In this document: in pieces, positions 3,076 to 34,649 of the stretch
How positions within the stretch are numbered: position 1 is the stretch's first letter
Layout: every line of letters begins with the position of its first letter
Assembly: GCA_030684835.1 (NCBI GenBank)
Contig: JAUXWZ010000022.1
Span: 1 to 43,502, forward strand
DNA length: 43,502 nucleotides
Direction: 5' to 3'
Source of the DNA: Beijerinckiaceae bacterium
GTDB lineage: Bacteria; Pseudomonadota; Alphaproteobacteria; Rhizobiales; Beijerinckiaceae
Notes under the pieces: generated by a model
The model's input: only the letters and a program-made list of their open reading frames with translations
Told to the model about the DNA's origin: nothing
Database searches by the model: none
Position numbers and translations under genes: made by a program

Positions 3076-3508
3076 GCTCTGAGCCCATCCTTGGGGCCCC
3101 GAAACTATGATTCGCCTGCTATTATCGAGTGACTGATTGCACCGGGATTCTCCAAGGATCACTGCCGAAACGGTTTGAGCGGAACTTGATCCGCTCATTA
3201 CATTCCCATTGTGCGGACCGGACGCGAGTCGCGCGTCATCCCTGTTAGCTTTAGATGTTTGATCCCGGGATTTCATGGGCGCTCCTCACCGCCAGAAATC
3301 AAGCGATGCATTAAGAGCGAGGGTCGCAAGGGCCTAGCCCATGCTGAGCGCTCGGGCGGTCGCCTTCGATTTGGCTTGGCTACATGCGGCCACGGCGAGT
3401 ACGATGTCGAGGATAACGAGAGCACTCGCTCGCCCGGCTCCGCCGCTAATCGCCACAGGCCCAGACCGGCAGGAACGGTCGGGCCGACCATAAACAGTGA
3501 GGATTCCC

Positions 3509-6265: not shown

Positions 6266-8101
6266 ATGCCGTTTCCGTCCATCCATCCGCTCTTCGAACG
6301 CGCCCTGACCGCTCAGGGGTATACCGAACTCACCTCCGTGCAGGAGGCCGTGATTGCGCCCGGGGCGGAGGGCCGCGACCTTCTGGTGTCAGCCCAAACC
6401 GGATCAGGCAAGACCGTCGCCTACGGGCTGGCGCTGGCCCATACGCTGCTGGGCGACGCCGAGAAACTGGGCAAGCCGGGGGCGCCCCTTGCTCTGATTA
6501 TTGCGCCGACCCGGGAGTTGGCGATGCAGGTTCAGCGCGAGCTGAACTGGCTCTATGCTCCCACCGGCGCACGGGTCGTCAGCTGCATCGGGGGCATGGA
6601 TGTGCGCCGAGAGGCGCGCACGCTGGAAGACGGCTGTCATATCGTCGTAGGGACGCCGGGGCGCCTGAGAGACCACATCGAACGCGGCCGCCTCGACATT
6701 TCGACGCTGCTGGCCGTGACGCTCGACGAAGCCGACGAGATGCTCGATCTTGGATTTCGCGAAGACATCGAATTCATCCTCGACGCCACGCCCCGGGAAC
6801 GTCGCACGCTGCTGTTCTCAGCAACCATTCCGCGCGATATTGCAACACTCGCGCGCCATTACCAGACCGACGCCTTTCGGATTGACACGGTCGACCGGAC
6901 ACAGCCGCACGGCGACATTGAATACCGCGCTCTGCGCATCGCACCCCACGAAACCGAGCACGCCGTCGTCAATATTCTGCGTCTGATCGAAGCGCGCGGC
7001 GCGATTGTCTTCTGCCAGACGCGCGAGGCTGTGCGCCATCTCCACGCCAGTCTTGTGGAGCGCGGTTTTGCCGCCGTGGCGCTGTCAGGCGAGTTCAGCC
7101 AGAGCGAGCGCACCCACGCGCTGCAGGCGCTGCGCGATGGCCGCGCACGCGTATGCGTCGCCACTGACGTTGCGGCGCGCGGCATCGACCTTCCGGGACT
7201 TGAACTTGTCATCCACGCCGAGCTGCCGAACGATCGCGACACGCTGCTTCACCGCAGCGGACGCACGGGCCGCGCGGGCCGCAAGGGCATTTGCGTTCTG
7301 CTGGTGCCCTACACGCGCCGCCGCAAGGCTGAGGGGCTGATCGCGCAAGCGCGCGTTGATGTGGTGTGGAGCGGTCCACCAACCGCGGAGCAGATCCGCA
7401 TCGCCGACCAAACCCGCATGCAGGACGACCCCATCTTCTCCGAGCCCAGCAGCGAGGAGGACGCCGCGCTCGCGCGCATGCTGATCTCGCAGCGCTCGCC
7501 GGAAGAAATCGCGGGCGCCCTGGCGCGACTCTATCGCAGCCGCCTGCCCGCGCCCGAGGACCTTTACGACGCCTCAAGCGCGCCCGAACGCGCGCCCCGC
7601 CCACCCCGCGACCGCGCCGACAAGCGTGAGCGGGATGCGCGACGGACAAACGCAGCAGATACGCCCTCCGGGCAAGCCACCGTCGATCCTTCCTATTCGC
7701 CCAGAAGCGCGGAGCCGATGGTGTGGTTCCGCATGAATGTGGGCCGCAGCAACAACGCCGATCCGAAATGGATTCTCCCCGTGATCTGCCGTGTCGGGCA
7801 TGTCACAAAGAAAGAGATTGGCGCCATCAAGATTTTCGAGAAGGAAACCAAGTTCGAGATTGCGGAATCGGTCGCACCTCGTTTCGCCAGCGCCGTGCGC
7901 CGCTCGACGGACGAGAACGTCCACATCCAGCCAGCGGCCGGATCGATGCAGGAAATGCGCAAGAAGCCTGCGGGGGACTCCGCGCCGCGCGAATCCACCA
8001 CCCGCGAACCCTTCAAACCGCGCCCACGCAAGGAAGGGAAAGCCCCCTACGCTGGCGGTAAAGGCCCACGCGACTTCGGCAAGCGAAACCTCGACAAATA
8101 G
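6266..8101 (+). CDS. DEAD-box ATP-dependent RNA helicase with DbpA-type C-terminal domain
   Basis: This 611-residue helicase unwinds RNA duplexes, in ribosome assembly or mRNA turnover. Visible motifs in order are: Q-motif region ELTSVQEAVI (about 21-30), Walker A AQTGSGKT (43-50), PTRELA (81-86), TPGRL (130-134), DEAD (154-157), SAT (185-187), IVFCQT, ATDVAARGID and HRSGRTGR. A charged linker follows, then WFRMNVGRSNNADPKWILPV, leading into an RRM-like domain of the DbpA RNA-binding type. In E. coli DbpA that domain binds 23S rRNA hairpin 92. The tail is basic (PRPRKEGKAP). The ATG at 6266 was chosen because the protein then starts MPFPSIHPLF, as in relatives; the upstream extension from 6200 has no conserved sequence. 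No strong ribosome site was seen. Confidence 0.9.
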   Translation: MPFPSIHPLFERALTAQGYTELTSVQEAVIAPGAEGRDLLVSAQTGSGKTVAYGLALAHTLLGDAEKLGKPGAPLALIIAPTRELAMQVQRELNWLYAPTGARVVSCIGGMDVRREARTLEDGCHIVVGTPGRLRDHIERGRLDISTLLAVTLDEADEMLDLGFREDIEFILDATPRERRTLLFSATIPRDIATLARHYQTDAFRIDTVDRTQPHGDIEYRALRIAPHETEHAVVNILRLIEARGAIVFCQTREAVRHLHASLVERGFAAVALSGEFSQSERTHALQALRDGRARVCVATDVAARGIDLPGLELVIHAELPNDRDTLLHRSGRTGRAGRKGICVLLVPYTRRRKAEGLIAQARVDVVWSGPPTAEQIRIADQTRMQDDPIFSEPSSEEDAALARMLISQRSPEEIAGALARLYRSRLPAPEDLYDASSAPERAPRPPRDRADKRERDARRTNAADTPSGQATVDPSYSPRSAEPMVWFRMNVGRSNNADPKWILPVICRVGHVTKKEIGAIKIFEKETKFEIAESVAPRFASAVRRSTDENVHIQPAAGSMQEMRKKPAGDSAPRESTTREPFKPRPRKEGKAPYAGGKGPRDFGKRNLDK

Positions 8102-8207: not shown

Positions 8208-9230
8208 ATGAAGCGCCCTTGGGCGGCGTTTGCCGTGATCGCGACACTTGCGTCAGGCTTCGATGCGCAGGCGCAGGCGCAGACGAGCGGCGGGAGTTCC
8301 ACGATCACTCTTGCGATCGGCACGAATGTCGGTGGCGGTTACGATCTTTATGGACGCCTCGCGGCTCGGCATCTGGGCCGCATGATGAAAGGCGCCCCGC
8401 TCGTCGTACCCTCCAATATGCCCGGCGCCGGGCAATTGATCATGACCAACTGGCTCTACAACGTCGCGCCGAAGAACGGGTCGGCGATAGGCCTCGTCCC
8501 AAGCACGACCGCCCTGGAAAATCTGTTTGGGAACCCGCGCGCGAATTACGACGCGCGCAATTTCAAATGGATCGGCAGCCTGAACGGACACACCGCAATT
8601 GCCATCAGCTGGCATGCTTCGCCGATCAAGACGGCTGACGATCTTTTCACGGACGTCATTATTGGCGGCGGCGCTCCGAGTTCCGACGTCACGATCTGGC
8701 CGCGGCTGCTCAACAACATATTGGGCACAAGAATCAAGATTGTCGCTGGTTATGTCGGTACGTCACAAATCGCACTGGCCATGGAGTCGGGCGAAGTGCA
8801 TGGGCAAATCGGAGCCGATTGGGACGGCTTGAAGGCGAGCCGACCAGACTGGATTCAAAATCAGCGCATTCGGGTCGTCATGCAATTAGTGAGCGCACGG
8901 CATCCAGAATTGGCGAACGTGCCGACGGTTCTTGATTACGTCAGAACTGACTCCGACCGGAGGCTTTTGCAATTGTTCATCGACCGCCTTTCCTATGGTC
9001 GTCCGCTTGCCGCGCCGCCAGGTACGCCAGACGCCGAAGTCCAGAACTTGAAAGCGGGATTTCAGGCCATGATTCAGGATCCCGAGTTCCGCAGGGAAGC
9101 AGAAACACTTCGGGCGACGATAAATCCTGCGCGTGGCGAAGAAATAGAAGCGCTGATCCAGAAGGTTTATGCGGCCCCGCACGACGTTCTCTCACGGGCG
9201 GTTCAGGAATTGCAGAAGGCGAGCAAGTAA
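8208..9230 (+). CDS. Bug/TctC-type periplasmic solute receptor (copy 1)
   Basis: This 340-residue protein has a signal peptide (cut near AQAQAQT) and a Bug-fold body. The first strand and loop read TLAIGTNVGGGYDLYGRLAARHLG, the hallmark GGGYD loop that receives a carboxylate. The later GYVGTSQIALAMESGEVHGQ and YGRPLAAPPGTPDAEVQNL segments match the family. Bug receptors bind carboxylic acids or related ligands in the periplasm and normally feed TctA/TctB transporters or sensors. No tctA or tctB gene is present in this window. The start is the ATG after GGGAGGA. An amidohydrolase gene starts 32 bases after its stop, so the pair probably forms an operon in which the receptor captures what the hydrolase acts on. 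Confidence 0.9.
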   Translation: MKRPWAAFAVIATLASGFDAQAQAQTSGGSSTITLAIGTNVGGGYDLYGRLAARHLGRMMKGAPLVVPSNMPGAGQLIMTNWLYNVAPKNGSAIGLVPSTTALENLFGNPRANYDARNFKWIGSLNGHTAIAISWHASPIKTADDLFTDVIIGGGAPSSDVTIWPRLLNNILGTRIKIVAGYVGTSQIALAMESGEVHGQIGADWDGLKASRPDWIQNQRIRVVMQLVSARHPELANVPTVLDYVRTDSDRRLLQLFIDRLSYGRPLAAPPGTPDAEVQNLKAGFQAMIQDPEFRREAETLRATINPARGEEIEALIQKVYAAPHDVLSRAVQELQKASK

Positions 9231-9262
9231 ATGGACCATTTGTCCGATGAGATGGCGCGCAC

Positions 9263-10096
9263 ATGATTGTCGATGCACAGGTTCATTTATGGCCAGCGGA
9301 AACACCGGCGCGTCCGTGGCCATCTGATGGCGCACAGAGGGCGCATCTCAAAGAACCGATGAGCTATGCCGACATGCTCAAAACCATGGACCGGGCCGGT
9401 GTAGACTGCGCCATCATTGTGCCGCCGTCATGGGAAGGCGACCGCAATGACTATGCGCTGGAAGCCGCGCGGCTGCATCCTGACCGGTTCGGAGTTATGG
9501 GGCGCATCGCGCTAGATGATCCTGCTGGTCCCGAGCTTGTAAAGCGATGGTTTGACGAACCGGGCATGCTCGGCGCCCGCATCAATTTCTCGGATGAAAA
9601 GACCGTATGGCTGGAGGACAAAACCGCAGACTGGTTTTGGCCAGCGGCGGAAGCGGCGGGTATCCCGGTGATGATGCATGCTCCGGGGCATCAGGACAAG
9701 TTTGCCGCCATTGCGCTGGCTCACCCGCGACTGCGCATCATTGTCGATCATATGAATATTTCGACCCGGCTCGCGAAAGACAAAATTGCTCCGGCGATCA
9801 AGGCGACAGCCGCGCTCGCGGCGCATCCCAACATCAGTGTGAAGCTATCGTCGGTCCCGGCCTATTCATCGACGCCTTTTCCATACGCGGACATGGACCC
9901 GCATCTGGAGGAGCTGGTCGCGGCTTTCGGCGCCGAGCGATGCTACTGGGGAAGTGACCTCTCGCACGGCAAGGGCAAAATACCTTACGAGCACTACGTT
10001 AGTCACTTCACCGAGCATCTCCCATTTCTAACGCCTTCCCAACGCAAGTTGATATTGGGCGCTGCGATAGTTAGCTTCTTAGGCTGGCCAAAATAG
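9263..10096 (+). CDS. Amidohydrolase-2 family metal-dependent hydrolase
   Basis: This 277-residue cytoplasmic TIM-barrel protein belongs to the amidohydrolase-2 group (PF04909), which includes lactonases and decarboxylases of aromatic degradation. It begins MIVDAQVHLW, where the usual DxHxH strand-1 motif has Gln in place of the first His; this DAQVHxW form is a known subfamily variant. Further probable metal or catalytic residues are the His in VMMHAPGH, the His in IIVDHMN and the Asp in YWGSDLSHG. It follows the Bug receptor closely and has a weak ribosome site. A lactone or amide ring-opening role is possible (compare 2-pyrone-4,6-dicarboxylate lactonase), but the substrate is unknown. Its 3' end is followed by 374 non-coding bases. 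Confidence 0.8.
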   Translation: MIVDAQVHLWPAETPARPWPSDGAQRAHLKEPMSYADMLKTMDRAGVDCAIIVPPSWEGDRNDYALEAARLHPDRFGVMGRIALDDPAGPELVKRWFDEPGMLGARINFSDEKTVWLEDKTADWFWPAAEAAGIPVMMHAPGHQDKFAAIALAHPRLRIIVDHMNISTRLAKDKIAPAIKATAALAAHPNISVKLSSVPAYSSTPFPYADMDPHLEELVAAFGAERCYWGSDLSHGKGKIPYEHYVSHFTEHLPFLTPSQRKLILGAAIVSFLGWPK

Positions 10097-10470
10097 ACTG
10101 CGCAACGTGAAGGATTCACCAGCGCACAGCATGTTTCGTCAGCGCCTTCGTGACGGCCGTCACCGTTTGATTTCTTGCTGGTCCCCAAGCGCCGGGCGGC
10201 GACGCACGCCCGCCGCCGGCTTGCTCGCGCATGAATCTGCTGATCCAGCGATCGCTCGCATTCTTGCAAGTGAAATTCAAATTGACGAGGTCGCGGGGCG
10301 CGTAGACATTGTGGTCGGTTGACGGCGCGCCAACGGCAGGAGCTGGATACCTCCTGCGACCCGGACGAGGACCAGCTTTGCAGCTCAAATCGGCAAGCGC
10401 GATGTTGCGGCGCATCGTCAAACCCGCGGACGCAGATGTGCTTGCGAGCTAATGTCCCGGGGAGGACGCC
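10097..10470. other. 374-base intergenic region before the hydrolase pair
   Basis: No gene is supported here; the open frames have no domain and overlap each other on both strands. A 7-bp hairpin, GCAGGAG (10336-10342) with CTCCTGC (10351-10357) around an 8-base loop, stands 114 bases before the next start and has no T-run. The region probably separates two transcription units and should contain the promoter for the downstream hydrolase operon. Confidence 0.4.
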
Positions 10471-11844
10471 ATGGTTAAGGTCGTGACAGCAACCCGTTTC
10501 AAGCCAGACGACGTCTGGGAGCGCGAGAAGGTCATCCGCGTCTCGAACGCTTTAAACGATAGCGCTTCCTGCACCGCCGTGCAGCGCGAAGACATCTTCC
10601 GGCTGCATGCTCTGGGTATGGACTGGGACATCGGCGTGCAGATACATGAGCCCTCCGACGGGCGCATCAACGCGGGCGCGGACGGCAAGAAAGTTGGCGT
10701 GTTCCTGCTGCATGGCGGCGCCGGCGACTTCAAATCAATGGAGCGATTATCGACGCTGTTTGTCGAGAAATTCCGCTACAAGGTTGTGGTGATGACCTTC
10801 CCCGGCCGGCTTTATCTTGATGATGAATCGCGCGACTGGCCGGGCGATACGATGAACGCAGACGGAGTTGTTCGCACTCCCCTGTGGCTCAAGGGTGAGC
10901 ATGTCACGCCTGACCAGTACGAACTGGTGCGCGACGCCTCAAAACGCATGAAATACGGGGTCAGAACCCACGCGCGCGCCAAGCCGGGCACGCGTTTCTA
11001 CGATCGCATGGCGTCGTGGCCCGTCGCCTTCGAAGAGGGAATGAAAGAGGCCTGCCGACGTCAGTTCCCGCAAGACGAATACTCTATTTATGTGCATGGC
11101 CACTCGACCGGCGGACCTTACGTCTCGATGTTGACCCAGCGCGTGCCCAACATCGCGGGCGTGCTCGCCATCGAAAATTCGACGTTTGGTTATATAAACG
11201 AACGTAAACATCAATGGGGCGGGCACGTCGGGAAGATCGAGGGTTACGAGGCGGTCGCCACGAAGACCGAAGAGTCCTGGAAGGACCCCTTCAACGATCT
11301 CTACATTCGCACATGGCGTGACCTCGCGCGCTACCGTGGGCCTGAGGCGCTCGGCCAGGAAGGTCCAAACGCCCTGATGCGGTTGCCATGGCTCATGGAA
11401 GAGATTCTGGATGCGTGGGACGTCGCCAAGAAGCGACCGCAGTTCAAAGCGGAATACATGATCACGCACAATATTGTCAGCGCGCTGGAGAGCGCAGCGC
11501 GCGCTGCGGCCAAGCGGATGAATATGACTGCGGCGGACGAGCAAAGGCTGATCGAGCATTACATCGGCTACACACGGGAACTGAGAGGGCCGGGCGTGAA
11601 GCCAGTGCCGCCGTATCTTTTCGTGATTGCCAAGGACAGCCGCGACCATAATCCGCAGGTCTATCGCGAAGTGATTTTGCCGATGTTCGCGCAGATGAAC
11701 CCAGCCCCGCGCACCCACCTGACGCGTTTCATGGCTGGCGTTCACACATACACGAAACCAGAGCAGGATCTGCCCATGGGCATCGCGCCAGCTGCGGCGC
11801 ATTATTTCAACGAAGCGATCACCGGCGGATTTTTTGTCGTTTGA
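10471..11844 (+). CDS. Large alpha/beta hydrolase, tandem paralogue A
   Basis: This 457-residue protein has no signal peptide. It shows an oxyanion segment FLLHGGAGDFK, a nucleophile elbow HGHSTGGP with S212 as probable catalytic serine, and C-terminal candidates for the acid and base in AKDSRDHN and AGVHTY. This is the order expected of alpha/beta hydrolases, but the protein is about 150 residues longer than a typical esterase. The additional central block (about 270-345) includes LYIRTWRDLARYRGPEALGQ and MRLPWLMEEILDAW. I do not recognise a characterised family and the substrate is unknown; an ester or amide of an organic acid is suggested by neighbouring Bug receptors. The ATG follows GGGGAGGA. 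A clear paralogue (12039-13394) follows on the same strand. Confidence 0.8.
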   Translation: MVKVVTATRFKPDDVWEREKVIRVSNALNDSASCTAVQREDIFRLHALGMDWDIGVQIHEPSDGRINAGADGKKVGVFLLHGGAGDFKSMERLSTLFVEKFRYKVVVMTFPGRLYLDDESRDWPGDTMNADGVVRTPLWLKGEHVTPDQYELVRDASKRMKYGVRTHARAKPGTRFYDRMASWPVAFEEGMKEACRRQFPQDEYSIYVHGHSTGGPYVSMLTQRVPNIAGVLAIENSTFGYINERKHQWGGHVGKIEGYEAVATKTEESWKDPFNDLYIRTWRDLARYRGPEALGQEGPNALMRLPWLMEEILDAWDVAKKRPQFKAEYMITHNIVSALESAARAAAKRMNMTAADEQRLIEHYIGYTRELRGPGVKPVPPYLFVIAKDSRDHNPQVYREVILPMFAQMNPAPRTHLTRFMAGVHTYTKPEQDLPMGIAPAAAHYFNEAITGGFFVV

Positions 11845-11871
11845 TGTGCGCCGCCAAAATGGAGTGACACC

Positions 11872-12042
11872 ATGCATACCGGCGCCCAATGGCCCCAGAC
11901 ACGTCTCAAATGCCCGGATGGCAAACTGATCTGCCGCAGGGCGAATCGTTATCGTGCACACGTTGCGAGGGAAACCCTAGCGGAACCGCGCTTCACGAGG
12001 ATACTGCCCAACGCGAGGGATAATAAAGGAGACGTCCAATGA
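11872..12042 (+). CDS. Small ORF between the two hydrolase genes (56 aa)
   Basis: An ATG at 11872 preceded by GGAGTG opens a frame of 56 residues (MHTGAQWPQTRLKCPDGKLI...). Its TGA overlaps the ATG of the second hydrolase as ATGA, a layout typical of translationally coupled operon genes. The peptide is basic, has two cysteines (LKCPDG and LICRRA), no signal peptide and no recognised domain. It may be a real small protein, a translational coupler, or chance, since its 3' end also has to contain the ribosome site of the next gene (AAGGAG). Conservation in relatives would decide. Confidence 0.3.
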   Translation: MHTGAQWPQTRLKCPDGKLICRRANRYRAHVARETLAEPRFTRILPNARDNKGDVQ

Positions 12043-13394
12043 ACGACCGCACAGCATGGAGCCCCCCGCCAGAGGTATCGCGCGAACAGGCGCTCGCCAT
12101 CTCGAACGAAGTGCTAGGGGGCCGCTCCATTCCGATCAACGAGACGGAAGACATCTTTCGCATCAATTGCCTCGGGCTCGACTGGGACATGGGCGTTTCA
12201 GTGTTCGAGCCGAAGTCGCCAGAAGACGCCGCACGTGGGCCCGATGGCAAGAAGGTCGGCGTCTTTGTGCTGCACGGCGGCTCTGGCGACTTCAAGGCAA
12301 TGGCGCCGCTGGCGCGCATCTATGCCGGGAAGTTCGGACACAAAGTCGTCTGCATGACGTTCCCCGGTCGCCTGTACTTCGATGACCCAAGCCGCGACTG
12401 GCCGGGCGACACGATCAAGCCGGACGGTACGGTGCGCACGCCGATGTGGCTGCGTGGCGAGCCTATCACACCAGACCAATACGACGTCGTGTCAGACACG
12501 ACAAAGCGCATGCGTTACGGCACGCGCACAGTGGCGCGCGCAAAGCCCGGCACGAACTTTTATCACCGCATGGCGGCGTGGCCCGGCGCGTTTGAGGAAG
12601 GGATGCGCGAAGCCATGCGCCGCCATCTGCCCGAAGGCGAATATTCAATTTATGGTACGGGCCACTCCACGGGCGGACCGCACATTTTCATGATGTGCCA
12701 GCGCGTGCCGAACATGGTCGGCGTCATCGCCGTGGAGCACTCGCCGTTCGGCGTCATTCAGGCCAAGCAGCACGACTGGTCCGGCGCCCTGGGCAAAATT
12801 GCAGGCTTTGAGCGCGTCTCGAAGAAGCCAGACCCGCGCTCGGACCCGTTCAACGAACTCTACATCCGCACATGGCGCGATCTGGCGCGCTATCGCGGGC
12901 CCGAAGCGCTAGGGCAGGAAGGCCCCGCCGCGCTTATGCGCCTTCCCTGGCTGATGGAAGAAATTCTCGACGCGTGGGAAAGCGCAAAGAAGCGCCCGCA
13001 GTTCAAGGCCGAATACATCATCACCCATAACGTGCAGGCCTCACTGAAGGCGGGCGCCGAAGCAACGGCGGATCGGCTGAAGCTGAACGCAGAGGACCGC
13101 GCCGCTCTCGTGGCGCGCTTCTGCAGCTATCCCCACCCCGTGCCGGGCAAACAGGTGCCGCCAATCTTGTTCACGATCACCAAGGACAGCCGCGATCACA
13201 GCGCGGATGTGTATCGCGAGGTGGTGCTGCCGGAATTCGCCAAACTGCCTATGGCGCCCAAGACAGCGCTCATCCATCTGGGCGCGGGAGTACATACGTA
13301 CTGGAAGCCGGAAGAAGGCCTTCCCGTGGGGGCGGCGCCTATCGCGGCTTACCTGAACCATCAGGCGATCATGTCGGGATACTTTCTGCCGTGA
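12039..13394 (+). CDS. Large alpha/beta hydrolase, tandem paralogue B
   Basis: This 451-residue protein is clearly homologous along its whole length to the product of 10471-11844. The oxyanion segment is FVLHGGSGDFK, the nucleophile elbow is TGHSTGGP (S210), and acid/base candidates lie in TKDSRDHS and AGVHTY. The block FNELYIRTWRDLARYRGPEA and the following ALMRLPWLMEEILDAW are almost unchanged between the copies. Differences cluster near the N-terminus and the cap: an insertion around SPEDAARGPDG here, and GTGHS against HGHS at the elbow. The ATG follows AAAGGAG. The two copies could be partners in one complex or have different substrates. No signal peptide is present, so both should act in the cytoplasm. 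Confidence 0.8.
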   Translation: MNDRTAWSPPPEVSREQALAISNEVLGGRSIPINETEDIFRINCLGLDWDMGVSVFEPKSPEDAARGPDGKKVGVFVLHGGSGDFKAMAPLARIYAGKFGHKVVCMTFPGRLYFDDPSRDWPGDTIKPDGTVRTPMWLRGEPITPDQYDVVSDTTKRMRYGTRTVARAKPGTNFYHRMAAWPGAFEEGMREAMRRHLPEGEYSIYGTGHSTGGPHIFMMCQRVPNMVGVIAVEHSPFGVIQAKQHDWSGALGKIAGFERVSKKPDPRSDPFNELYIRTWRDLARYRGPEALGQEGPAALMRLPWLMEEILDAWESAKKRPQFKAEYIITHNVQASLKAGAEATADRLKLNAEDRAALVARFCSYPHPVPGKQVPPILFTITKDSRDHSADVYREVVLPEFAKLPMAPKTALIHLGAGVHTYWKPEEGLPVGAAPIAAYLNHQAIMSGYFLP

Positions 13395-13856
13395 TTGCGT
13401 GCGGGAGATTGTCACCATGAAAACGCATGGGCGATCATCCTGACGGCCAAAGCACTGGTTGTCTGCGGCGGCGCCGCCGTCGCAGGCCACACAATTTTGT
13501 TCATCGCCAAGGCGCGGGAAGGGTTTGCTGCGCTCCGCGCCGCGCCGAGCCGAGCCTACCCGCAAAGCTCATCGCAAAGCTCATCGCACGCATAAAATGG
13601 GTGAAGAAGGCGGCGATGACAGGCTTACAAAGGGCTACGGGGCGCACACGGCCACGGGCGGGGTGGACCAGCGGCTTTTAGAAGTGTGCGGCTGATCAAG
13701 CGGCAAAGGCTCCGCTGAAACCGGCGGACACTGCGCGCCCTTGCCGTTTGTCTTCGTGACACGCTATCTTGCGCGCATCGAAGCGCCCTGCCACGGCAGA
13801 TGCGTCTCTCGTCGAACAACATGCTTGAACAAGCAGAACATCTGGAGAGGAAACCC
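13395..13856. other. 462-base stretch with possible short membrane ORF
   Basis: No gene is firmly supported. One TTG-started frame (13395-13595) directly after the hydrolase stop would encode a hydrophobic segment (NAWAIILTAKALVVCGGAAV) and then a low-complexity Ser/Arg tail; it could be the remnant of a membrane protein. Two other frames overlap it with Arg/Pro-rich, unconvincing sequence. A short direct repeat, CGCAAAGCTCAT, occurs twice in tandem near 13561-13584. The 3' end must carry the promoter or leader of the cupin gene. Confidence 0.35.
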
Positions 13857-14447
13857 ATGTCGCAGGCGCAGGCATTGTTTGAGCAGTTCATCCGCGATGT
13901 TCATGCCGTCTGGGCTGCGGAACCCGACATGGGCAATCGCATGGCGCAGACGAGGCCGCTGTTCGAGAAGCTGGTGCGCGAGCCCGCCATGCAGGCCGAA
14001 AGCGACAGCTGGCCCTCCACCGAAGGCCACAAGAACCTGCTGTTCCACACGGATGAAACATACGGCTTCATCATCAACGCTGTTGTGCGCGAACCCAATC
14101 GCAAGGGCAGCGTGCATGACCACTCAACCGCGTGGGTTCTCTACGGCTTGCTGGCCGGACATGAATCGCTGGAGCGCTATGAGAGGATCGATGATGGATC
14201 GAAGCCCGATTACGCGGAAGTGAAGCTTACGGGCGTCACGAATGGTGGGCCCGGCAATGTCGATCTCGTGCCGCCCTACGCCATTCACGCCGAACAAGGC
14301 GGAACGGGCCGCTCGGTGGCTCTTATTTTCCGCAGCCAGCGCCTTGTCGGCAAGGTGCTGCAGCACGGTTACGATCTCCAGAACAAGACGATTATTGAGC
14401 GGTGGGGGCCGACGCAGATCCCCTACACGTTTGGGCAAGCAGCCTGA
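13857..14447 (+). CDS. Small cupin, cysteine-dioxygenase-like (COG5553 type)
   Basis: This 196-residue cytoplasmic protein appears to be a double-stranded beta-helix protein of the cysteine-dioxygenase-like group (COG5553). The metal motif is SVHDHSTAWVLYGLLAG (H87 and H89), and PPYAIHAEQGG later gives the probable third ligand. Proteins of this group bind iron or another divalent metal and often oxygenate a thiol or organic acid; the actual substrate is not known. The ATG at 13857 is preceded by GGAGAGGAAA; in-frame alternatives further upstream have no such site. The gene ends 12 bases before a Bug receptor gene, so both are probably co-transcribed, suggesting that a periplasmically captured ligand or its derivative is the substrate. 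Confidence 0.75.
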   Translation: MSQAQALFEQFIRDVHAVWAAEPDMGNRMAQTRPLFEKLVREPAMQAESDSWPSTEGHKNLLFHTDETYGFIINAVVREPNRKGSVHDHSTAWVLYGLLAGHESLERYERIDDGSKPDYAEVKLTGVTNGGPGNVDLVPPYAIHAEQGGTGRSVALIFRSQRLVGKVLQHGYDLQNKTIIERWGPTQIPYTFGQAA

Positions 14448-14459
14448 AGGGAGCGCAAA

Positions 14460-15494
14460 ATGATTCAGCCTCGATTGGCCCGGCATGCGCTGGGCGTGAT
14501 GATTGTTGCAGCTTCGCTCGCGACGCACGTCGCCCATGCGCAAGACTATTATGCGGGGAAGACGATCACGTTTCTCGTCGGCGGCAACCCCGGCGGGGGA
14601 TACGATGTGTACGCCCGCACAATTTCCCGGCACATCACCAAATATATTCCAGGCGCGCCGCAAAGGCTTGTGCGCAACCAGCCGGGCGCCGGCAGCGGAA
14701 CAGCGGCAGCCGCAATTTATAATACCGCGCCAAAGGACGGAACCTGGATTGGCGTGCTGTTTCCGGGCGTCATCATGGGCCCCATTCTCGATCCGCAATC
14801 GCGCATGACGTTCGATCCCGCAAAATTCGTCTACATCGCCAGCGCCGACAGCGGCACGCGGGTCTGCATTACGGGCAAGAAGTCATCCATCAAGACGATG
14901 AAGGACGCGCTGGAACGCAAAGCGATCATGGGCGCAAGCGCCGCCGGCGGGTCGAGCCGCGACTACGCTTACATGCTCAAGCACACCACCGGTGCGAAGT
15001 TTGACGTGGTGAGCGGTTACAAGGGTACGCCCGATATCTTCCTCGCCATCGAACAGGGCGAAGTCGACGGAACCTGCGGTCTCGACTGGTCGAGCCTCAA
15101 GGCGCAGCGTCCAACCTGGGTGCGGGACGGCATGGCGAACGTCATCATCCAGAACGGGCTCAGCAATGAGCCGGAACTGGACGCGTTGAAGGTTCCCAAC
15201 GTGTGGGAGTTCATCCAGTCGCCGCAAGACAAGGCGGCCATAGAACTTGTGCTCGCACAACAGGTTTTCGGCCGTCCCTATGTTGTCGCGCCAGAGACGC
15301 CGCCCGACGCGGTGCGCACGTTGCGCAAGGCGTTCATGGACGTCTTCGCGGACAAGGAGTTTCTCGCAGACGCCGAGAAGTCGCGGATCGACATCAGCCC
15401 AACCTCGGGTGAAGACGTGCAGAAACTCGTCGCCGAGGTCTTCGCCATGAAGGCGGATGTCGTGGAGCGCGCGAAAAAGATCACACAAGAGTGA
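14460..15494 (+). CDS. Bug/TctC-type periplasmic solute receptor (copy 2)
   Basis: This 344-residue protein has an N-terminal signal peptide (cut near HVAHAQ) and the Bug fold: TITFLVGGNPGGGYDVYART at the first strand, NQPGAGSG in the second ligand loop, GYKGTPDIFLAIEQGEVDGT and the conserved FGRPYVVAPETPPDAVRTL. The GGGYD loop is the usual ligand clamp for carboxylates. It lies 12 bases after the small cupin and 25 bases before a third receptor, making a cupin-receptor-receptor operon. Compared with its neighbour, the ligand loop residues (SADSGTRVCITGK against NLSEESDTCSVWH) differ, so the two probably bind different compounds. No transporter subunits are nearby. Confidence 0.88.
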   Translation: MIQPRLARHALGVMIVAASLATHVAHAQDYYAGKTITFLVGGNPGGGYDVYARTISRHITKYIPGAPQRLVRNQPGAGSGTAAAAIYNTAPKDGTWIGVLFPGVIMGPILDPQSRMTFDPAKFVYIASADSGTRVCITGKKSSIKTMKDALERKAIMGASAAGGSSRDYAYMLKHTTGAKFDVVSGYKGTPDIFLAIEQGEVDGTCGLDWSSLKAQRPTWVRDGMANVIIQNGLSNEPELDALKVPNVWEFIQSPQDKAAIELVLAQQVFGRPYVVAPETPPDAVRTLRKAFMDVFADKEFLADAEKSRIDISPTSGEDVQKLVAEVFAMKADVVERAKKITQE

Positions 15495-15519
15495 CGATCA
15501 CCAAGCACGGGAGACGGGC

Positions 15520-16566
15520 ATGACGATCGACAGGTTGGCGACGACAAAGATCATCGTCGGCGCGCTTGCGCTGCATGCAATCTGCAGCGTGCCCGTTCAC
15601 GCGCAGGACGGCGGTTTCTTCGCGGGCAAGACGATCAGCCTCGCCGTTCCCTCGGGGCCTGGTGGGGGCTATGACACTTACGCGCGCGCCTTCGCGCGAC
15701 ATTATCCCAAGCACATTCCCGGCAAGCCGCAGATCGTCGTGCAAAACACGCCCGGCGGCGGCGGGCTCGTCGCCGCCAACAACCTTTACAATCTTGCAGC
15801 GCGCGACGGCACAGCGATCGCCGTGCTCGCATCCAGTTCGTTTCTGGTTGCCGCGCTTGGCGAGAAGCTTGCGAAGTTCGACAATCTCAAGTTCACGCCG
15901 GTTGGAAACCTGAGCGAAGAATCTGACACATGTTCCGTGTGGCATCGATCTCCCATCGAGACCACGCAGGATCTTTTTTCGAAGGAGACGGTCGTCGGCA
16001 GCGAAGGCATCGGCTCCAATTCACAGACGTTTCCACTAGCGATGAACGACGTGCTCGGCATGAAGTTCAAGATCATTCCCGGCTATCAGGGCACGCAACT
16101 TCGCGCCGCCGCCATGGAGCGTGGCGAGTTGCACGGCGCTTGCGGCATCTTCGTCTCGACGCTGAACGCGCTGTTTGATCGCCAACTCAAGGAAGGCGCG
16201 TGGCGCGTCGTCCTGCAGATGGGCCTGTCGCGCAATCCGCGCTTTCCCGATGTGCCCAACGCGCTGGAGCTCGCAAAAACGCCGGACGCGAAGGCGACGT
16301 TGACGACCATGTTTGCGCAGCTTGCGCTTGGCCGCCCGCTCTATGCCCCGCCCGATGTGCCCGCCGAACAGGCCGCGACGTTGCAGAAGGCGTTCGCCGC
16401 CACGATGGAAGACGCGGACTATGCTGCGGAAGCAACTAAGTTGCGGCTTGATCGTCGCTGGTTCGGGCCCGAGCGCATGAACGAAATCATGCGCGAGATG
16501 AACAACGCCAGCGAACCCGTGAAAGCAAGTTTGCGCAAGATCCTCAAGATCGACGCTAGCAAATAA
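15520..16566 (+). CDS. Bug/TctC-type periplasmic solute receptor (copy 3)
   Basis: This 348-residue protein has a signal peptide (cut near PVHAQDG) and Bug motifs: SLAVPSGPGGGYDTYARAFA, then QNTPGGGGLVAANNLY, GYQGTQLRAAAMERGELHGA and LGRPLYAPPDVPAEQAATL. It is translated from an ATG after GGGAGACGGGC. The gene follows copy 2 by 25 bases and ends 10 bases before the stop of the convergent oligopeptidase gene. With copies 1, 2 and 4 this gives four receptors in 12 kb. In Bordetella and Cupriavidus such receptors are numerous and mostly orphan, some acting as sensors rather than transport partners; that could apply here, but it is inference. Confidence 0.88.
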   Translation: MTIDRLATTKIIVGALALHAICSVPVHAQDGGFFAGKTISLAVPSGPGGGYDTYARAFARHYPKHIPGKPQIVVQNTPGGGGLVAANNLYNLAARDGTAIAVLASSSFLVAALGEKLAKFDNLKFTPVGNLSEESDTCSVWHRSPIETTQDLFSKETVVGSEGIGSNSQTFPLAMNDVLGMKFKIIPGYQGTQLRAAAMERGELHGACGIFVSTLNALFDRQLKEGAWRVVLQMGLSRNPRFPDVPNALELAKTPDAKATLTTMFAQLALGRPLYAPPDVPAEQAATLQKAFAATMEDADYAAEATKLRLDRRWFGPERMNEIMREMNNASEPVKASLRKILKIDASK

Positions 16567-16576
16567 CGCATCGCGC

Positions 16577-18655
16577 TCAGGCAAGGCCGACGCAGCGCAG
16601 CGCGAAGGCGATTTCGCGCGCCCTCGCGCGCTGCGCGGCGCGCCTTCCCTCGGCGCCCGAATGACCCGTGTCGAAATCAACCGAGAGCAAAAAGGGCCCA
16701 CCGGTCGCGCGAGCGCGTAAACGCGCGATCCATTTTGCTGGCTCCCAATACGTCACACGCGGATCAGCAATTCCCGCGCGCGCGAGGATGGGTGGATAGC
16801 GCGTCGCGCGCACCTGTTCGTACGGCGAGTAGGATCGCATGCGCTCGAAGGCTTCACGGCTCGTAATTGGATTGCCCCATTCCAGCCACTCGCCGGGGGT
16901 CAGCGGAAGTTCATCATCAAGCATCGTCGTGAGCACGTCGACAAACGGCGCGTCGGCGATGATTCCCGCGAAGAGATCGGGATCGAGATTAACTGAGGCG
17001 CCCACAAGCATGCCGCCTGCGCTTGCGCCCTGCGCCACGATACGCCCCCGCGAGGTGAAGCCCTCATCGACAAGCTTTTGCGCGACGGCCAGAAAATCCG
17101 TGAAAACGTTTGGCCGGCCTTCGAGACGGCCCATCCGATACCAGCGCCGGCCGCGCTCAGACCCGCCGCGCACATGGGCGACTGCGTAAACAAACCCGCG
17201 CGAGAGGAGCGGCAACCGCTCGACCGAAAACGCGGGATCGATGCTCCAGCCATAGGCGCCGTATCCGTAGAGCAAGCATGGTGCGGAGCCGTCGCGCTTC
17301 ACACCGCGAGGACAGACAACCGAGATCGGCACGTCTTCGCCATCCGGCGCCTTCGCAATCAGACGATGAAGCTCGAAGTCGGCGCCAAAATCCTGCGGCA
17401 ACGTCTGACGCTTGAGCAGGGTTGACGCGCGGCGCGTGAAATCAAACTCATAGGCTTCGTTTGGCCGCAACGGCGTGGAGATCGAATAGCGAAGACTTTG
17501 CGCGTCGAAATCGTAGGACGGCAACAATTGCAGACGAAAGAATTGCGCGTCGATGGGCGCTGTTTCTTCGCTGCCGTCGGCATGACGACGAATGACGATG
17601 CGCGGCACGCCATTCTCGCGCTCGACGCGAACGAGATGATCAGCCAGACAGCGATGCGAAGACAACGTGACGCCCGCGCGATGAGGCACAAGATCGCGCC
17701 AGTTGGCGCGCTGCGGATTGGCGAGTGGAGCGCTGACGAGCTTGAAATCCTCGGCGTCGTCCGCATTCGTGCGGATGATGAGCTGGTCGCCAACATGGTC
17801 GGCGTAATATTGTACGCCTGCTTCGCGCGCGCAGATGAGCCTGAAACCCGCGTCAGGCGCCCCAGCGTCCAGCAGCCATTCCTCGCTGGATTGCGCGCCA
17901 CGCAAGGAGAGGATGATGAAAGCGCTCGATGTGCTACGCGACACGGAAGCTGACCACGAAGGATCGTTCTCGCGGAAGATTTCGACGCTGTCGGACGCCG
18001 CGCCGTCTAGCCTGCAAAGCATCACGCGCCCGGGCCGCAGGTCTTCACGGTATTGCACATAGACCAGCGCGCGCGCATCCCTCGTCCATGCAAGCGAGCT
18101 TGATGCGCGCTCCAGAACCAGCGCGAGATCGCGGCCCGATTGAAGATCACGCACGCGGATCTCGCCCTGCTCTGCGCCAGTGGCGTCCGCCACGTAAGCG
18201 AGATAGCGATGATCGGGAGACACGCGCCATCCCATGAGCTTGAAGAAAGCTTTGCCCGCAGCGCGTTCGTTGCAATCCAGAATGATTGATTCATTCAAGC
18301 CGGACCTGTCGGCGCGCACGATCAGCGGATGCTCGCCCTCGCCAAAACGTTGCCCGTAGGCGAAAGGTCCAAAGGGTTGCGGCGGCGCCGACCAGGGCGT
18401 CTCTGCGTTGCGTTGCATTTCTTCGACAACGCGATCTTGAACATCGCGCAGGCCGTCAAGATGCCAGGCCGCGTAACGCGCTTCTGCGCGAAGATGCGCG
18501 CTTATGTCCGTTGGAAGAAGATCAGGATTGCGAAGCGCGGCGCGCCAGTTGGCCGCCCGCATCCATGCATATTCGTCTACGAGCTCGACGCCGTGATAGA
18601 CCCGGCGTTGAGGCAAGCGTTTGGCGGCAGGCGGCGCGGGCGTAATATCGTTCAT
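16577..18655 (-). CDS. ptrB: Oligopeptidase B, prolyl oligopeptidase family S9A
   Basis: This 692-residue serine peptidase combines an N-terminal seven-bladed propeller (about 60-410) and a C-terminal alpha/beta-hydrolase domain. The triad is readable: S545 in QGASAGGM, D631 in AGIADPRVTYWEP and H665 in DTGHSG. The catalytic-domain segment LYGYGAYG and the sequence AHVRGGSERGRRWYRMGRL are typical of oligopeptidase B, which cuts short peptides after Lys or Arg. The ATG at 18655 gives MNDITPAPPAAKR; a GTG at 18676 in the same frame would add seven residues, and neither has a strong ribosome site. The receptor gene 18752-19807 lies upstream on the same strand, 96 bases away, and may be co-transcribed. 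The symbol is based on family resemblance. Confidence 0.85.
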   Translation of the reverse strand: MNDITPAPPAAKRLPQRRVYHGVELVDEYAWMRAANWRAALRNPDLLPTDISAHLRAEARYAAWHLDGLRDVQDRVVEEMQRNAETPWSAPPQPFGPFAYGQRFGEGEHPLIVRADRSGLNESIILDCNERAAGKAFFKLMGWRVSPDHRYLAYVADATGAEQGEIRVRDLQSGRDLALVLERASSSLAWTRDARALVYVQYREDLRPGRVMLCRLDGAASDSVEIFRENDPSWSASVSRSTSSAFIILSLRGAQSSEEWLLDAGAPDAGFRLICAREAGVQYYADHVGDQLIIRTNADDAEDFKLVSAPLANPQRANWRDLVPHRAGVTLSSHRCLADHLVRVERENGVPRIVIRRHADGSEETAPIDAQFFRLQLLPSYDFDAQSLRYSISTPLRPNEAYEFDFTRRASTLLKRQTLPQDFGADFELHRLIAKAPDGEDVPISVVCPRGVKRDGSAPCLLYGYGAYGWSIDPAFSVERLPLLSRGFVYAVAHVRGGSERGRRWYRMGRLEGRPNVFTDFLAVAQKLVDEGFTSRGRIVAQGASAGGMLVGASVNLDPDLFAGIIADAPFVDVLTTMLDDELPLTPGEWLEWGNPITSREAFERMRSYSPYEQVRATRYPPILARAGIADPRVTYWEPAKWIARLRARATGGPFLLSVDFDTGHSGAEGRRAAQRARAREIAFALRCVGLA

Positions 18656-18751
18656 TGCAACGTCTGGTCCGGTCACGCGTCAAAGCGCGCCACGCTTTAA
18701 GTAGGCGCTGCCCTCACCCAAGGCAACGCCGCCTTCTTTCGCCCGCCGCCT

Positions 18752-19807
18752 TCACTTGGGAAGTTTGCGCTGATCTTCCGCTTTGGGCTCAAGAGCCATT
18801 TTAACGCGGCTTCGAACAGTCTCAGGCGCATCGATCAGCTCCGTCACGATGCGGGTCAGAACATCTGCGCTCATCGGGCGAATCTCGGCGTTTGATTTGG
18901 CCGCTTCATTCTTGAACTCGGGATCCAGCAGCGCGAGGTCGAACGCCTTGCGCAACGCGGCGACCCGGTCGGCAGGCACGCCCGGCGTTGTCGCGACAGG
19001 ACGCCCCACCGAGACGGCCTTCGACATGTAATCGGCCACAGGCCTGTCGGCTTCTGATAGTTGCAGGTCTTTCAGCAGCGGCACGCCGGGGAGGTCCTCT
19101 TCCGCTTCGATGCCGACCTGAAGCAGCGGCCGCAGTAGTTTTTCTTTCAGGTAATGTGGCTTCGAGGTCATGTAGCCGGCGTAGGTGTTGGTGCCGCGTC
19201 CCTCAAGTTCGCCGCGCTCCATCGCAAGATCCACATGCTGGCCGTTCGGATACCCCACGACGATTGCAAGCTTGGTGCCCAGAATATTGTTGTAGAACGC
19301 GGGTAATTGCACTGACATCGAACCTGCGCCTGTCGAGCCGATTGTCGTGACGCGCGTCTTGGCGTCCTCAAGTGTTTTTGTCGGCGACGTATGCCAGACC
19401 GCGAGCAATTGATTCGAGTTCGCCATGTTTCCAAGCCAGTTGAACTTGCGAAGATCGACCTTCAGACTGGGGTTGAGCCCGAGCGCCTGATCGACCGGCA
19501 ATCCCTGACTGACCATGGTGAGGATGGTGCCGTCCTGCGGCGCTATCTGGCCGACGTAGTTCGCGGCGATAATGCCGCCGCCGCCTGGCATGTTCTGCGG
19601 CGTCACATTGGGCTGCCCGGGAATATGCCTGCCGATATGGCGCGCCAGCAGCCGCGAGAGCTGATCATAGTCGCCGCCGGGGGGCGTACGGATGATGAAC
19701 CGCATTTGCTTGCCAGCGTAAAAGCTTGCGACCGTATCGGCCGCGACCGGGCCCGCAATTGCGATGAGCGCAACAGAAGCGGCAAGTGTCGTAATCGACT
19801 TTTTCAT
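18752..19807 (-). CDS. Bug/TctC-type periplasmic solute receptor (copy 4)
   Basis: This 351-residue protein has a signal peptide (MKKSITTLAASVALIAIAG, cut near VAADT). The Bug core is recognisable, but the first ligand loop reads RTPPGGDYDQLSRLLARHIG: Asp replaces the third Gly of the usual GGGYD, which may change the ligand. Other family segments are PQNMPGGGGIIAANYVG, GYPNGQHVDLAMERGELEG and VGRPVATTPGVPADRVAAL. The ATG at 19807 follows GGAGGAA; earlier in-frame codons up to 19876 are rejected because they precede that ribosome site. This gene is divergent from the Gfo/Idh oxidoreductase and is followed on its strand by ptrB, an unusual receptor-peptidase pairing. Confidence 0.88.
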   Translation of the reverse strand: MKKSITTLAASVALIAIAGPVAADTVASFYAGKQMRFIIRTPPGGDYDQLSRLLARHIGRHIPGQPNVTPQNMPGGGGIIAANYVGQIAPQDGTILTMVSQGLPVDQALGLNPSLKVDLRKFNWLGNMANSNQLLAVWHTSPTKTLEDAKTRVTTIGSTGAGSMSVQLPAFYNNILGTKLAIVVGYPNGQHVDLAMERGELEGRGTNTYAGYMTSKPHYLKEKLLRPLLQVGIEAEEDLPGVPLLKDLQLSEADRPVADYMSKAVSVGRPVATTPGVPADRVAALRKAFDLALLDPEFKNEAAKSNAEIRPMSADVLTRIVTELIDAPETVRSRVKMALEPKAEDQRKLPK

Positions 19808-20097: not shown

Positions 20098-21063
20098 ATG
20101 ATCAGGCTTGGAATCGTTGGGCTCGGGCCTTGGGGCAAGCGTCTCGTGGAATCGGTGCAGGGCAAGTCGGACAAGGTGAAATTCGCTGCCGCTTATGTCC
20201 CACGCCCCGAAAAGGTTGCTGATTACGTCGCGGCTAACAGCATCAAACTAGCCGGCAGCCTCGATGAATTGTTCGCCGATCCGGCAATCGACGCCATCGT
20301 GTCCTGCGGGCCCGCAAATCTTCATGGCGAGCATTCGCTGGCGGCTTTGAACGCGGGGAAGCCCGTGCTGGCCATCAAACCCATGGCGCTGAACGCCGCG
20401 CAAGCGCAGGCGCTGGGCGAGGCGGCGTCGAAGAAGGGGTTGCTGCTCGCGCTCGGCTACAATCGCTGCTTCATGCCCAACATCACCGCGCTGCGCACCG
20501 AAATCGCCAACGGCGCGCTGGGCCAAATTCTGCACACCGAAGGCGACTTCTGCGTTCATCGCCATTTCAACATCAAGGAAGGCGGCTGGAAGGGCGACCC
20601 GCTTCACTCGCCACCCGGCAGCCTCTCGGATCATGTTCTCTATCTGACCATTGAGGCTCTCGGCCCCCTCGTGCAGGTGCACGCCATCTCCCAGCACGGC
20701 GTGAGCGATAATCGCCTCTCGGACGTGACCGCGACGCTGGCGAAAGCGCGCAGCGGCGCCAGCGCCTTCCTCACCGCCATCGGCACCACCGCCAACGAAT
20801 TCCGCTTTCACGTTTTTGGCTCCAAAGGCTGGGCCGAAGCGCGCGGCGAGCGCAGCTTCCGGCTGGAAACGGCTGGCGGCCGGAGCGTCACCACAGAATT
20901 CCTCGACGCCGACCCCGAGCGGCTTGAGGTGGAAGCCTTCGCCGACGCGCTCACGGGCCACAAACCGTTTCCCGTGACAGCGCAGGATGCTGTGCACAGC
21001 GTTGCGGTGCTGGAAGCGATAGCCCGCTCGGCCAATTCGGGTCAGCCCGTGTCTCTGGGTTGA
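20098..21063 (+). CDS. Gfo/Idh/MocA family oxidoreductase
   Basis: This 321-residue protein has an N-terminal Rossmann nucleotide site (MIRLGIVGLGPWGKRL) and the family's lysine-containing segment, here GKPVLAIKPMALN in place of the usual EKP. A C-terminal alpha/beta substrate domain includes EGDFCVHRHFNIKEGGWKGD and SLSDHVLYLTIEALG, where D and H of the SDHVLY motif are candidates for catalysis. These enzymes use NAD(P) to oxidise or reduce sugars, inositols and related polyols or acids; the substrate here is unknown. The ATG at 20098 is preceded by TTGGAGGGGGGCGG; a TTG at 20083 overlaps that site and is rejected. A small membrane protein gene starts 5 bases after its stop, so both probably share a transcript. 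Confidence 0.85.
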   Translation: MIRLGIVGLGPWGKRLVESVQGKSDKVKFAAAYVPRPEKVADYVAANSIKLAGSLDELFADPAIDAIVSCGPANLHGEHSLAALNAGKPVLAIKPMALNAAQAQALGEAASKKGLLLALGYNRCFMPNITALRTEIANGALGQILHTEGDFCVHRHFNIKEGGWKGDPLHSPPGSLSDHVLYLTIEALGPLVQVHAISQHGVSDNRLSDVTATLAKARSGASAFLTAIGTTANEFRFHVFGSKGWAEARGERSFRLETAGGRSVTTEFLDADPERLEVEAFADALTGHKPFPVTAQDAVHSVAVLEAIARSANSGQPVSLG

Positions 21064-31650: not shown

Positions 31651-32153
31651 GCGCGGCGACCATGGCCAACGTGTCCGTAACCCGCGCCGAGGTGGAGGAC
31701 TTCCTCTATCACGAAGCGATGCTGCTCGATGACTGGCGCCTGAAGGAATGGGAAGAACTGCTCGCCGACGACGCGACGTATTACATTCCGGCGAACGACG
31801 ATCTGGACGGGGACTTCAAGAGCTCGCTCTACATCATCTCCGATGACCGCGAACGTATTCGCCAGCGCATCATTCGCGTGCTCGATCCCAATTGCCACGC
31901 GGAATTTCCGCGTTCGCGCCTGTGCCGCCTCATCACCAACGTGCGCATCACCGGCGTTGAGGGCGACATCGTAAAAGTTGCGGCGAATTTTTCCTGCTAT
32001 CGTTATCGCCGCTACCAACGCGAGTTCGTGTATGTTGGAAAGTATGAATACCAGCTGCGCAAGCGCGGCAATTCGTTCAAGATCAAGGAGCGCCGCGTCT
32101 TGCTCGCCGCTCACGAACTGGGCCAGCTTGGCTCGGTGAGTTTCGTTCTCTAA
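31647..32153 (+). CDS. Ring-hydroxylating oxygenase, beta subunit
   Basis: This 168-residue protein has the SnoaL/NTF2-like cone fold of oxygenase small subunits: EVEDFLYHEAMLLDDWRLKE at the N-terminus, then YYIPANDDLDGDF, RLCRLITNVRI and the C-terminal YVGKYEYQLRKRGNSFKIKE. It builds the alpha3beta3 structure and is not catalytic. Translation is coupled to the alpha subunit by an ATGA overlap. A strong hairpin follows its stop, before the ferredoxin gene. Confidence 0.92.
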   Translation: MSAATMANVSVTRAEVEDFLYHEAMLLDDWRLKEWEELLADDATYYIPANDDLDGDFKSSLYIISDDRERIRQRIIRVLDPNCHAEFPRSRLCRLITNVRITGVEGDIVKVAANFSCYRYRRYQREFVYVGKYEYQLRKRGNSFKIKERRVLLAAHELGQLGSVSFVL

Positions 32154-32160
32154 ACTATTC

Positions 32161-32192: not shown

Positions 32193-32244
32193 GAAAACTG
32201 CGCGATCCACAAGCGGCCAAAAGAGCTGCACAGGGAGGACCCGA

Positions 32245-32607: not shown

Positions 32608-32617
32608 GGGGCGGAGC

Positions 32618-34638: not shown

Positions 34639-34649
34639 GCCATTGAGCC

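Follow-up and report, generated by a model that had tools for sequence, protein, structure and literature searches.

Do neighbouring genes for orphan receptors, hydrolases and a cupin make up one catabolic pathway, or are they separate modules that happen to be neighbours? The question is raised by positions 8208-19807 of a 43,502-nucleotide stretch of DNA from a Beijerinckiaceae bacterium (contig JAUXWZ010000022.1; hereafter the window, at its full length). Four TctC/Bug receptors (BUG1 to BUG4), an amidohydrolase (AMIDO), two paralogous alpha/beta hydrolases (HYD1 and HYD2), a cupin (CUPIN) and an S9 peptidase are found there at the positions given in an earlier note on this DNA, which took the whole for a capture-and-hydrolyse system acting on carboxylated esters or amides. 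On balance we lean towards a different reading, namely that the region consists of several receptor-enzyme modules lying side by side rather than of one pathway, and that HYD1 and HYD2 are intact survivors of a partly deleted operon.

The nearest relative (G041) has the island genes at 88-96% protein identity with extra genes in between. One of its contigs (locus L048) carries, in this order, the helicase, BUG1, AMIDO, a fused ABC permease, an ABC ATPase, HYD1, a PuuE-like gene and an SBP_bac_6 binding protein, followed by another PuuE-like gene of which the contig edge leaves only the beginning; a different contig (L037) carries an SDR gene, HYD2, CUPIN, BUG2, BUG3, the peptidase and BUG4. 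Twin HYD genes stand among ABC importer and PuuE-like genes in four relatives (G041, G004, G024 and G045), three of which also have the SDR. G004 (L039) and G024 (L038) share one run of permease, ATPase, HYD2, HYD1, PuuE-like gene and SDR, the second PuuE-like gene and the binding protein being placed before the permease in L039 and after HYD1 in L038; G045 (L040) has two PuuE-like genes, the binding protein, the permease and both HYD, but an ATPase and an SDR are missing from the vicinity. By blastp, the permease of these three loci is 65-75% identical to that of G041, the PuuE-like proteins 74-85% and the binding protein 59-70%.

At the place where G041 has its permease and ATPase genes, the window has a short stretch without a good counterpart there, and next to it a degenerate end of the ATPase gene (scar 1, Table 1). 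A second site holds the beginning of the first PuuE-like gene (scar 2a, part of a 91-base ungapped match of 11848-11938 to L048 that includes the start codon), an internal piece of the binding-protein gene (scar 2b) and a remnant from the SDR side (scar 2c). Such scraps of ATPase, PuuE-like and binding-protein genes point to an importer that once stood here and was then deleted. The ancestral operon would have held a PuuE-like hydrolase, the ABC binding protein, the fused permease, the ATPase, two HYD genes, a second PuuE-like hydrolase and the SDR, and the simplest reading of the remnants is that at least two deletions cost the lineage of the window its importer, the two PuuE-like genes and the SDR, leaving both hydrolases open. 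Errors in the assembly of this 4.93-Mb draft genome (208 contigs, estimated contamination 3.89%) might imitate deletions, yet the junctions carry short remnants that have diverged and are still in order: the end of the ATPase gene, the start of the PuuE-like gene and a fragment of the binding-protein gene. In addition, the rest of the genome has no PuuE-like orthologue (best match 31%, against 77-85% in G024, G004 and G034) and no permease orthologue (40%, against 72-75% in G024 and G004), and we consider assembly error very improbable. The counterparts of the lost genes in the relatives resemble ABC importers of the PhnSTU2 kind (2-aminoethylphosphonate/Fe3+ type) and the allantoinase PuuE; their scores are far below the equivalog cut-offs, so that the substrates of those systems are not transferable to them.

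The two hydrolases are older than the deletions, since the identity of each to its orthologues in G024 and G004 (77% and 73% for HYD1, 68% and 65% for HYD2) exceeds the 58% between the twins. All island genes are open, with pairwise dN/dS of 0.05-0.13 between the window and G041, which is a mean over both branches. With at least two deletions and their degenerate remnants one could also suppose a decaying region, in which the hydrolases and receptors have been turning into pseudogenes with no present role ever since the importer was lost; the lack of stop codons and the low ratios of HYD1 (0.05) and HYD2 (0.06), though averaged over both lineages, speak against it and leave decay little credit, if somewhat more than assembly error.

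As enzymes, HYD1 and HYD2 can be placed by structure prediction. Neither has a Pfam match above the cut-off or an NCBIfam model, and their PDB sequence matches are at chance level. An AlphaFold2 model (pLDDT 88.8) puts them among the alpha/beta hydrolases, by the core fold together with the nucleophile elbow (G-x-S-x-G), which reads GHSTGG in 25 of 25 aligned HYD members. Foldseek gives generic alpha/beta-hydrolase matches only; none of the 50 shown has a TM-score above 0.38 on query length. The core fold and elbow are shared with the haloalkane dehalogenase/epoxide hydrolase branch, from which HYD differs by those low TM-scores, by a length some 150 residues greater than that of most targets, by the serine proposed as its nucleophile and by the lack of family profile matches. 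S210 (within GHSTGG), H419 and D386 are invariant in 25 HYD sequences and may form the catalytic triad of HYD2, with HGG at 79-81 as its putative oxyanion element. HYD shows no signal peptide by eye, HYD1 included. Among 150 genomes searched, members of the family occur in 15, the window's own and 14 more of the same genus, whereas in 398 genomes of the phylum it was found in the window's own alone, with at most four candidates scored per genome listed; a scan of contigs, which finds close relatives only, gave six HYD loci.

HYD is coupled to receptors in most of its single-gene loci. The HYD loci read comprise 20 regions fetched out of 33 matches, fragments on short contigs having been left out. 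Of 14 loci with a single HYD gene, 11 have a receptor as the next downstream gene in the same orientation; the 14 include L050, with HYD at the contig edge, and L044, which was read with a separate gene caller, added by hand and is absent from the automatic adjacency counts. Counted automatically, a receptor comes next downstream of 10 of 22 HYD genes, as opposed to 12 of the 188 remaining non-receptor genes in these loci. In a FastTree tree of 207 receptors, nine of the 11 HYD-paired receptors fall within one clade of 20 tips (support 0.92), which also has the receptors of HYD loci L038, L045 and L055 and a receptor divergent from a TctAB pair of the window's own genome (on contig C200). The window's four receptors have different nearest neighbours in this tree, and it lends no support to BUG1 having descended as HYD's cognate receptor.

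Receptors recur beside amidohydrolases as well. BUG1 and AMIDO are separated by 32 bp, one of the operon-like spacings that the earlier note had rightly pointed out (the others being 12 bp for CUPIN-BUG2 and 25 bp for BUG2-BUG3), and at 17 of 30 loci of the genus an AMIDO-family amidohydrolase has a receptor next to it in the same orientation. This count takes the 30 of 36 matches that were given as loci, the window and G041 included, with gaps measured from stop-to-stop frames. The background, 103 of 629 non-receptor genes (16%), is a high one because it was drawn from receptor-rich loci of the window's own genome. BUG1-AMIDO is thus a recurrent kind of receptor/amidohydrolase pair. The enzyme itself may be distant kin of 2-pyrone-4,6-dicarboxylate hydrolase, a LigI-like lactonase: PDB 2ffi is matched with an E value of only 1.8e-4, and the NCBIfam lactonase matches are weak and far below the cut-off.

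For CUPIN the best PDB match, by sequence and by fold, is 3-mercaptopropionate dioxygenase (3MDO). Its model (pLDDT 88.7) aligns to 3MDO with TM-scores of 0.75 (query) and 0.83 (target), and its H-x-H aligns to 3MDO and H163 to mercaptosuccinate dioxygenase (MSDO). H106, H108 and H163, numbered on the 215-residue reading, are invariant in 21 sequences and are the proposed Fe ligands; with a cupin fold and three putative Fe-binding histidines, CUPIN would be, as modelled, an oxygenase of the thiol-dioxygenase kind. The outer-sphere Ser-His-Tyr motif, sought as S-x-H-x-Y, is found in none of 21 family members; these residues enhance the activity of thiol dioxygenases yet are not required (PMC8050391). 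CUPIN has no signal peptide by eye and no NCBIfam match. The order cupin-receptor-receptor is found in the window, in G041 and in G037 (L091), and in three sister cupin loci that were tested a TauD-family gene lies upstream, directly in L097 and L102 and with a receptor between in L105. The substrate would probably belong to the thiol carboxylates.

The nearest characterised arrangement that we have seen, in the parts of the source available, is the 3,3'-dithiodipropionate (DTDP) cluster of Advenella mimigardefordensis DPN7T (mdo, ahpD-like, tctC, tctC; MIM_c31400-31430), which CUPIN-BUG2-BUG3 resembles in having a thiol dioxygenase followed by two tripartite tricarboxylate transporter (TTT) receptors (PMC5373536). 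That cluster serves an organosulfur compound, and its dioxygenase and both receptors are tabulated in a section on upregulated proteins. It differs in the ahpD-like gene between dioxygenase and receptors and in the CoA transferase and desulfinase that precede them, whereas CUPIN is without the Ser-His-Tyr motif and its relatives are seldom beside receptors (5 of 21). The available part of a Variovorax study likewise treats the uptake of 3,3'-thiodipropionate via TctC proteins and the oxidation of 3-mercaptopropionate by a dioxygenase (PMC8102459).

Several observations weigh against the reading that we favour. The HYD loci are related by descent, and the Fisher value of the automatic count (5.7e-6) overstates their independence. 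No receptor lies directly downstream of HYD in three of the 14 single-HYD loci (L042, L045 and L056), and the operon loci L039 and L040 have none within five genes of HYD, so that a receptor is not needed there. BUG1 lies outside the HYD-linked clade, its nearest own paralogue being 1.41 substitutions per site away. A same-strand adjacent receptor accompanies CUPIN in five of 21 loci, hardly above the background (the 21 genes come from the window, G041 and 19 of 20 fetched regions, the cupin of L087 not having been recovered); cupin-receptor pairing as a genus-wide rule is not supported by this count. Lastly, pairwise dN/dS would be compatible with relaxed selection after a recent loss; the genome is a 208-contig draft, and the two contigs of G041 could not be followed across their junction.

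Which permease, then, would serve the receptors? The earlier note found no TctA or TctB in the window, and this extends to the whole contig: in whole-genome searches each occurs in nine places, all of them elsewhere, and at the island no receptor has tctA and tctB beside it as in a complete TctABC operon. Two TctAB pairs elsewhere have receptors alongside. At C87, TctA-TctB is followed by two receptors with a G-G-Y-D motif like that of the window's, and at C200 by one receptor with a G-G-N-D variant, the divergent receptor there having G-Y-D. These two pairs are candidate permeases for the orphan receptors, which may share them. To the note's remark that the permease is unknown there is thus a partial answer: an ABC importer was once encoded here and lost by deletion, and receptor-linked TctAB pairs exist. 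A separate linkage of ABC and TTT-receptor genes occurs on C161 (L118, 12552-16606), with a binding protein of ABC type (by eye), a fused ABC permease and then a Bug receptor in the same orientation, adjoining what seem by eye to be Rieske dioxygenase subunits and an amidohydrolase.

Under the modular reading, a periplasmic receptor would bind a small carboxylate and hand it over to a shared TctAB encoded elsewhere (C87 and C200 being the candidates), and a hydrolase or oxygenase, presumably cytoplasmic, would then cleave or oxidise it. BUG1-AMIDO would be the first such module, HYD1 and HYD2, old paralogues from an import-and-hydrolysis operon, the second, and CUPIN-BUG2-BUG3, a thiol-dioxygenase-like oxygenase with two receptors, the third, whilst the peptidase and BUG4 would be bystanders. 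It could also be that we are looking at a transporter swap midway: HYD occurs both as twins amid ABC importer genes and singly beside receptors of one Bug clade, and here the twins would have lost their ABC importer and be flanked by receptors whose shared TctAB may now feed them; this we find doubtful. It also seems unlikely that the receptors sense rather than import, orphan Bugs passing the ligand to a sensor kinase or chemoreceptor with the enzyme genes merely co-regulated targets. A sensory role is cited for Bct of Bordetella, and 14 of 22 histidine kinase genes of Rhodoplanes lie near TTT receptors, according to the part of that study at hand (PMC5994714); on the other side, no sensor kinase or regulator gene was noticed in the island, no search aimed at these having been run, and receptors of the BUG family occur in TctAB operons of the same genome.

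The nature of the substrates can be narrowed somewhat by the enzymes and their neighbours. Hydrolysis by the island enzymes is made plausible by the putative serine nucleophile of the two alpha/beta hydrolases, by the PF04909 membership of AMIDO and by the amide-acting enzymes encoded nearby in relatives, and HYD and AMIDO would probably act on an amide, ester or lactone. An amidase accompanies HYD in two of two relatives' loci tested, and an Asp/Glu/hydantoin racemase in one. Neighbouring genes of this kind point to amide, cyclic-amide or organosulfur carboxylates; naming a substrate from the amidase, racemase, PuuE-like or TauD neighbours was dropped, and these were kept as a lead. At L044 (7212-8762) and L053 (7161-8711), HYD and a receptor are followed by an amidase-family enzyme with a signal-like hydrophobic N-terminus by eye, possibly periplasmic.

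The receptor-enzyme coupling that the earlier note had in mind is borne out for AMIDO and HYD, and so, as a plausible activity, is hydrolysis; the 12 kb as one system is not. A single pathway of capture and hydrolysis, with every receptor and enzyme of the region devoted to one substrate family (carboxylated esters or amides), could appeal to the whole set being common to G041 and to L044 of G026, where HYD and receptors are joined by a gene that by eye resembles an amidohydrolase and by one for a relative of the window's 410-residue cupin. Among the loci fetched, however, the whole gene order recurs only in G041, there on two contigs, and beyond these two genomes no HYD locus has CUPIN within five genes and no cupin locus has HYD within four. 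Both strands are used, with the peptidase and BUG4 on the other one, receptor-rich clusters are common in the genome, and the four receptors are only 28-35% identical, if alignable over their whole length, and differ in their nearest neighbours in the tree. Such a pathway seems to us unlikely, about as much so as the sensing role.

The peptidase is probably unrelated to its neighbours. It has S9 domains and scores 409.9 bits against the 1313 of the NCBIfam OpdB equivalog, so the name oligopeptidase B in the earlier note goes too far; the enzyme genes and families named there are otherwise present, with the hydrolases lacking a Pfam match above the cut-off and owing their fold to a model. Within the genome, the tree places the nearest paralogues of BUG3 and BUG4 on C159 (L114, 1384-3532), where the two adjoin each other, one gene away from a TctB-TctA fusion gene.

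Four Bug receptors within 12 kb are confirmed by their reading frames and families, as assigned by PF03401 (cut-off 27 bits, with BUG1 and BUG3 above it and BUG4 and BUG2 below) together with a purpose-built receptor profile; NCBIfam gave no match for them, and all have hydrophobic N-termini by eye. An unusually dense cluster it is not. The genome has at least 141 TctC places (Pfam TctC, 150 of 228 candidates scored), and in its fetched parts the purpose-built profile finds 154 receptor reading frames, 144 of them of at least 250 residues, with ten clusters of four or more such receptors within 12 kb, or 13 if fragments are counted too; nine of the ten lie outside the window, and receptor density here is therefore ordinary. 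Nor is there evidence of a mobile island, the G+C being flat, no tRNA being present and no integrase having been noticed. The island is bounded on one side by what is by eye a DEAD-box helicase gene (6266-8101) and on the other by the gene of a GFO/IDH oxidoreductase (20098-21063), and no empty site could be defined in the relatives listed, where orthologues of the helicase and RNase D (named by eye) are on separate contigs or more than 1 Mb apart.

Table 1. Island genes and deletion remnants in the window.
Feature	Position	Strand	Remarks
BUG1, orphan TctC/Bug-type receptor	8208..9230	+	PF03401 30.4 bits; dN/dS 0.09 to nearest relative
AMIDO, PF04909 amidohydrolase	9263..10096	+	PF04909 112.9 bits; PDB 2ffi, E 1.8e-4
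Stretch without good counterpart in G041	10101..10398	.	blastn gap; only a gapped low-score alignment to permease/ATPase
Scar 1, degenerate 3'-end remnant of ABC ATPase	10399..10451	+	alignment of 10399-10480 to L048
HYD1, alpha/beta hydrolase, 457 aa	10471..11844	+	58% identical to HYD2; GHSTGG; dN/dS 0.05
Scar 2a, first ~22 codons of PuuE-like polysaccharide-deacetylase-family gene	11872..11938	+	match to L048
Scar 2b, internal 34-bp fragment of SBP_bac_6 binding-protein gene	11938..11971	+	alignment to L048
Scar 2c, SDR-side remnant and HYD2 leader	11982..12038	+	gapped alignment of 11982-12045 to L037
HYD2, alpha/beta hydrolase, 451 aa	12039..13394	+	AlphaFold2 model; generic alpha/beta-hydrolase matches; dN/dS 0.06
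CUPIN, predicted thiol-dioxygenase fold	13857..14447 (reading frame from 13800)	+	start 13857 by homology; 3MDO best PDB match
BUG2, TctC/Bug receptor	14460..15494	+	PF03401 21.5 bits, below cut-off; in receptor profile set
BUG3, TctC/Bug receptor	15520..16566	+	PF03401 43.2 bits; PDB 6hke, E 4.9e-11
S9 prolyl-oligopeptidase-family peptidase (OpdB-like)	16577..18676	-	PF02897 and PF00326; convergent with BUG3
BUG4, TctC/Bug receptor	18752..19807	-	PF03401 26.8 bits, cut-off 27; upstream of peptidase

Outside the island the window has a compact catabolic cluster (30373-35216) of ring-hydroxylating dioxygenase alpha and beta subunits, a Rieske ferredoxin, a PF04909 amidohydrolase and an isochorismatase-family hydrolase, with an FMN reductase on the opposite strand. 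A Cupin_2 protein (3497-4729; 379-410 residues) has relatives beside or near Bug receptors in L089, L090, L121 and L123, in HYD locus L044 and near the TctAB operon of C87 (L116). At 40582-43499 a malonyl-CoA decarboxylase gene adjoins one for an AMP-binding ligase, likely a malonate utilisation pair.

Lineage-specific expansion of these receptors, with tandem arrays, is known from Rhodoplanes as it is found in the window's genome: in the part of the report available, 434 orphan Bug receptors are counted, in arrays of up to nine in a row, with only nine receptors in full TctABC operons and 41 linked to ABC transporters (PMC5994714). Unlike the window, that account, as far as the same part goes, is without a recurrent receptor/hydrolase pair or the loss of a linked importer, and a literature search, with subscription papers mostly outside it, found no description of a recurrent receptor/alpha-beta-hydrolase pair or of its importer loss. 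The earlier note's statement that no described pathway has this composition thus stands for the whole, and gives way for the cupin-receptor-receptor part, to which the available portion of the Advenella paper offers a counterpart.

Some genomes have hundreds of orphan Bug receptors, most of them without a known ligand or permease. The eroded operon described here is a warning in this respect, as the absence of a permease from such a stretch of DNA may mean a deletion and not a new kind of system. At the same time, HYD being physically tied to one receptor clade, and that clade having a TctAB-linked member in the genome, singles out a receptor, an enzyme and a permease that can be tested together.

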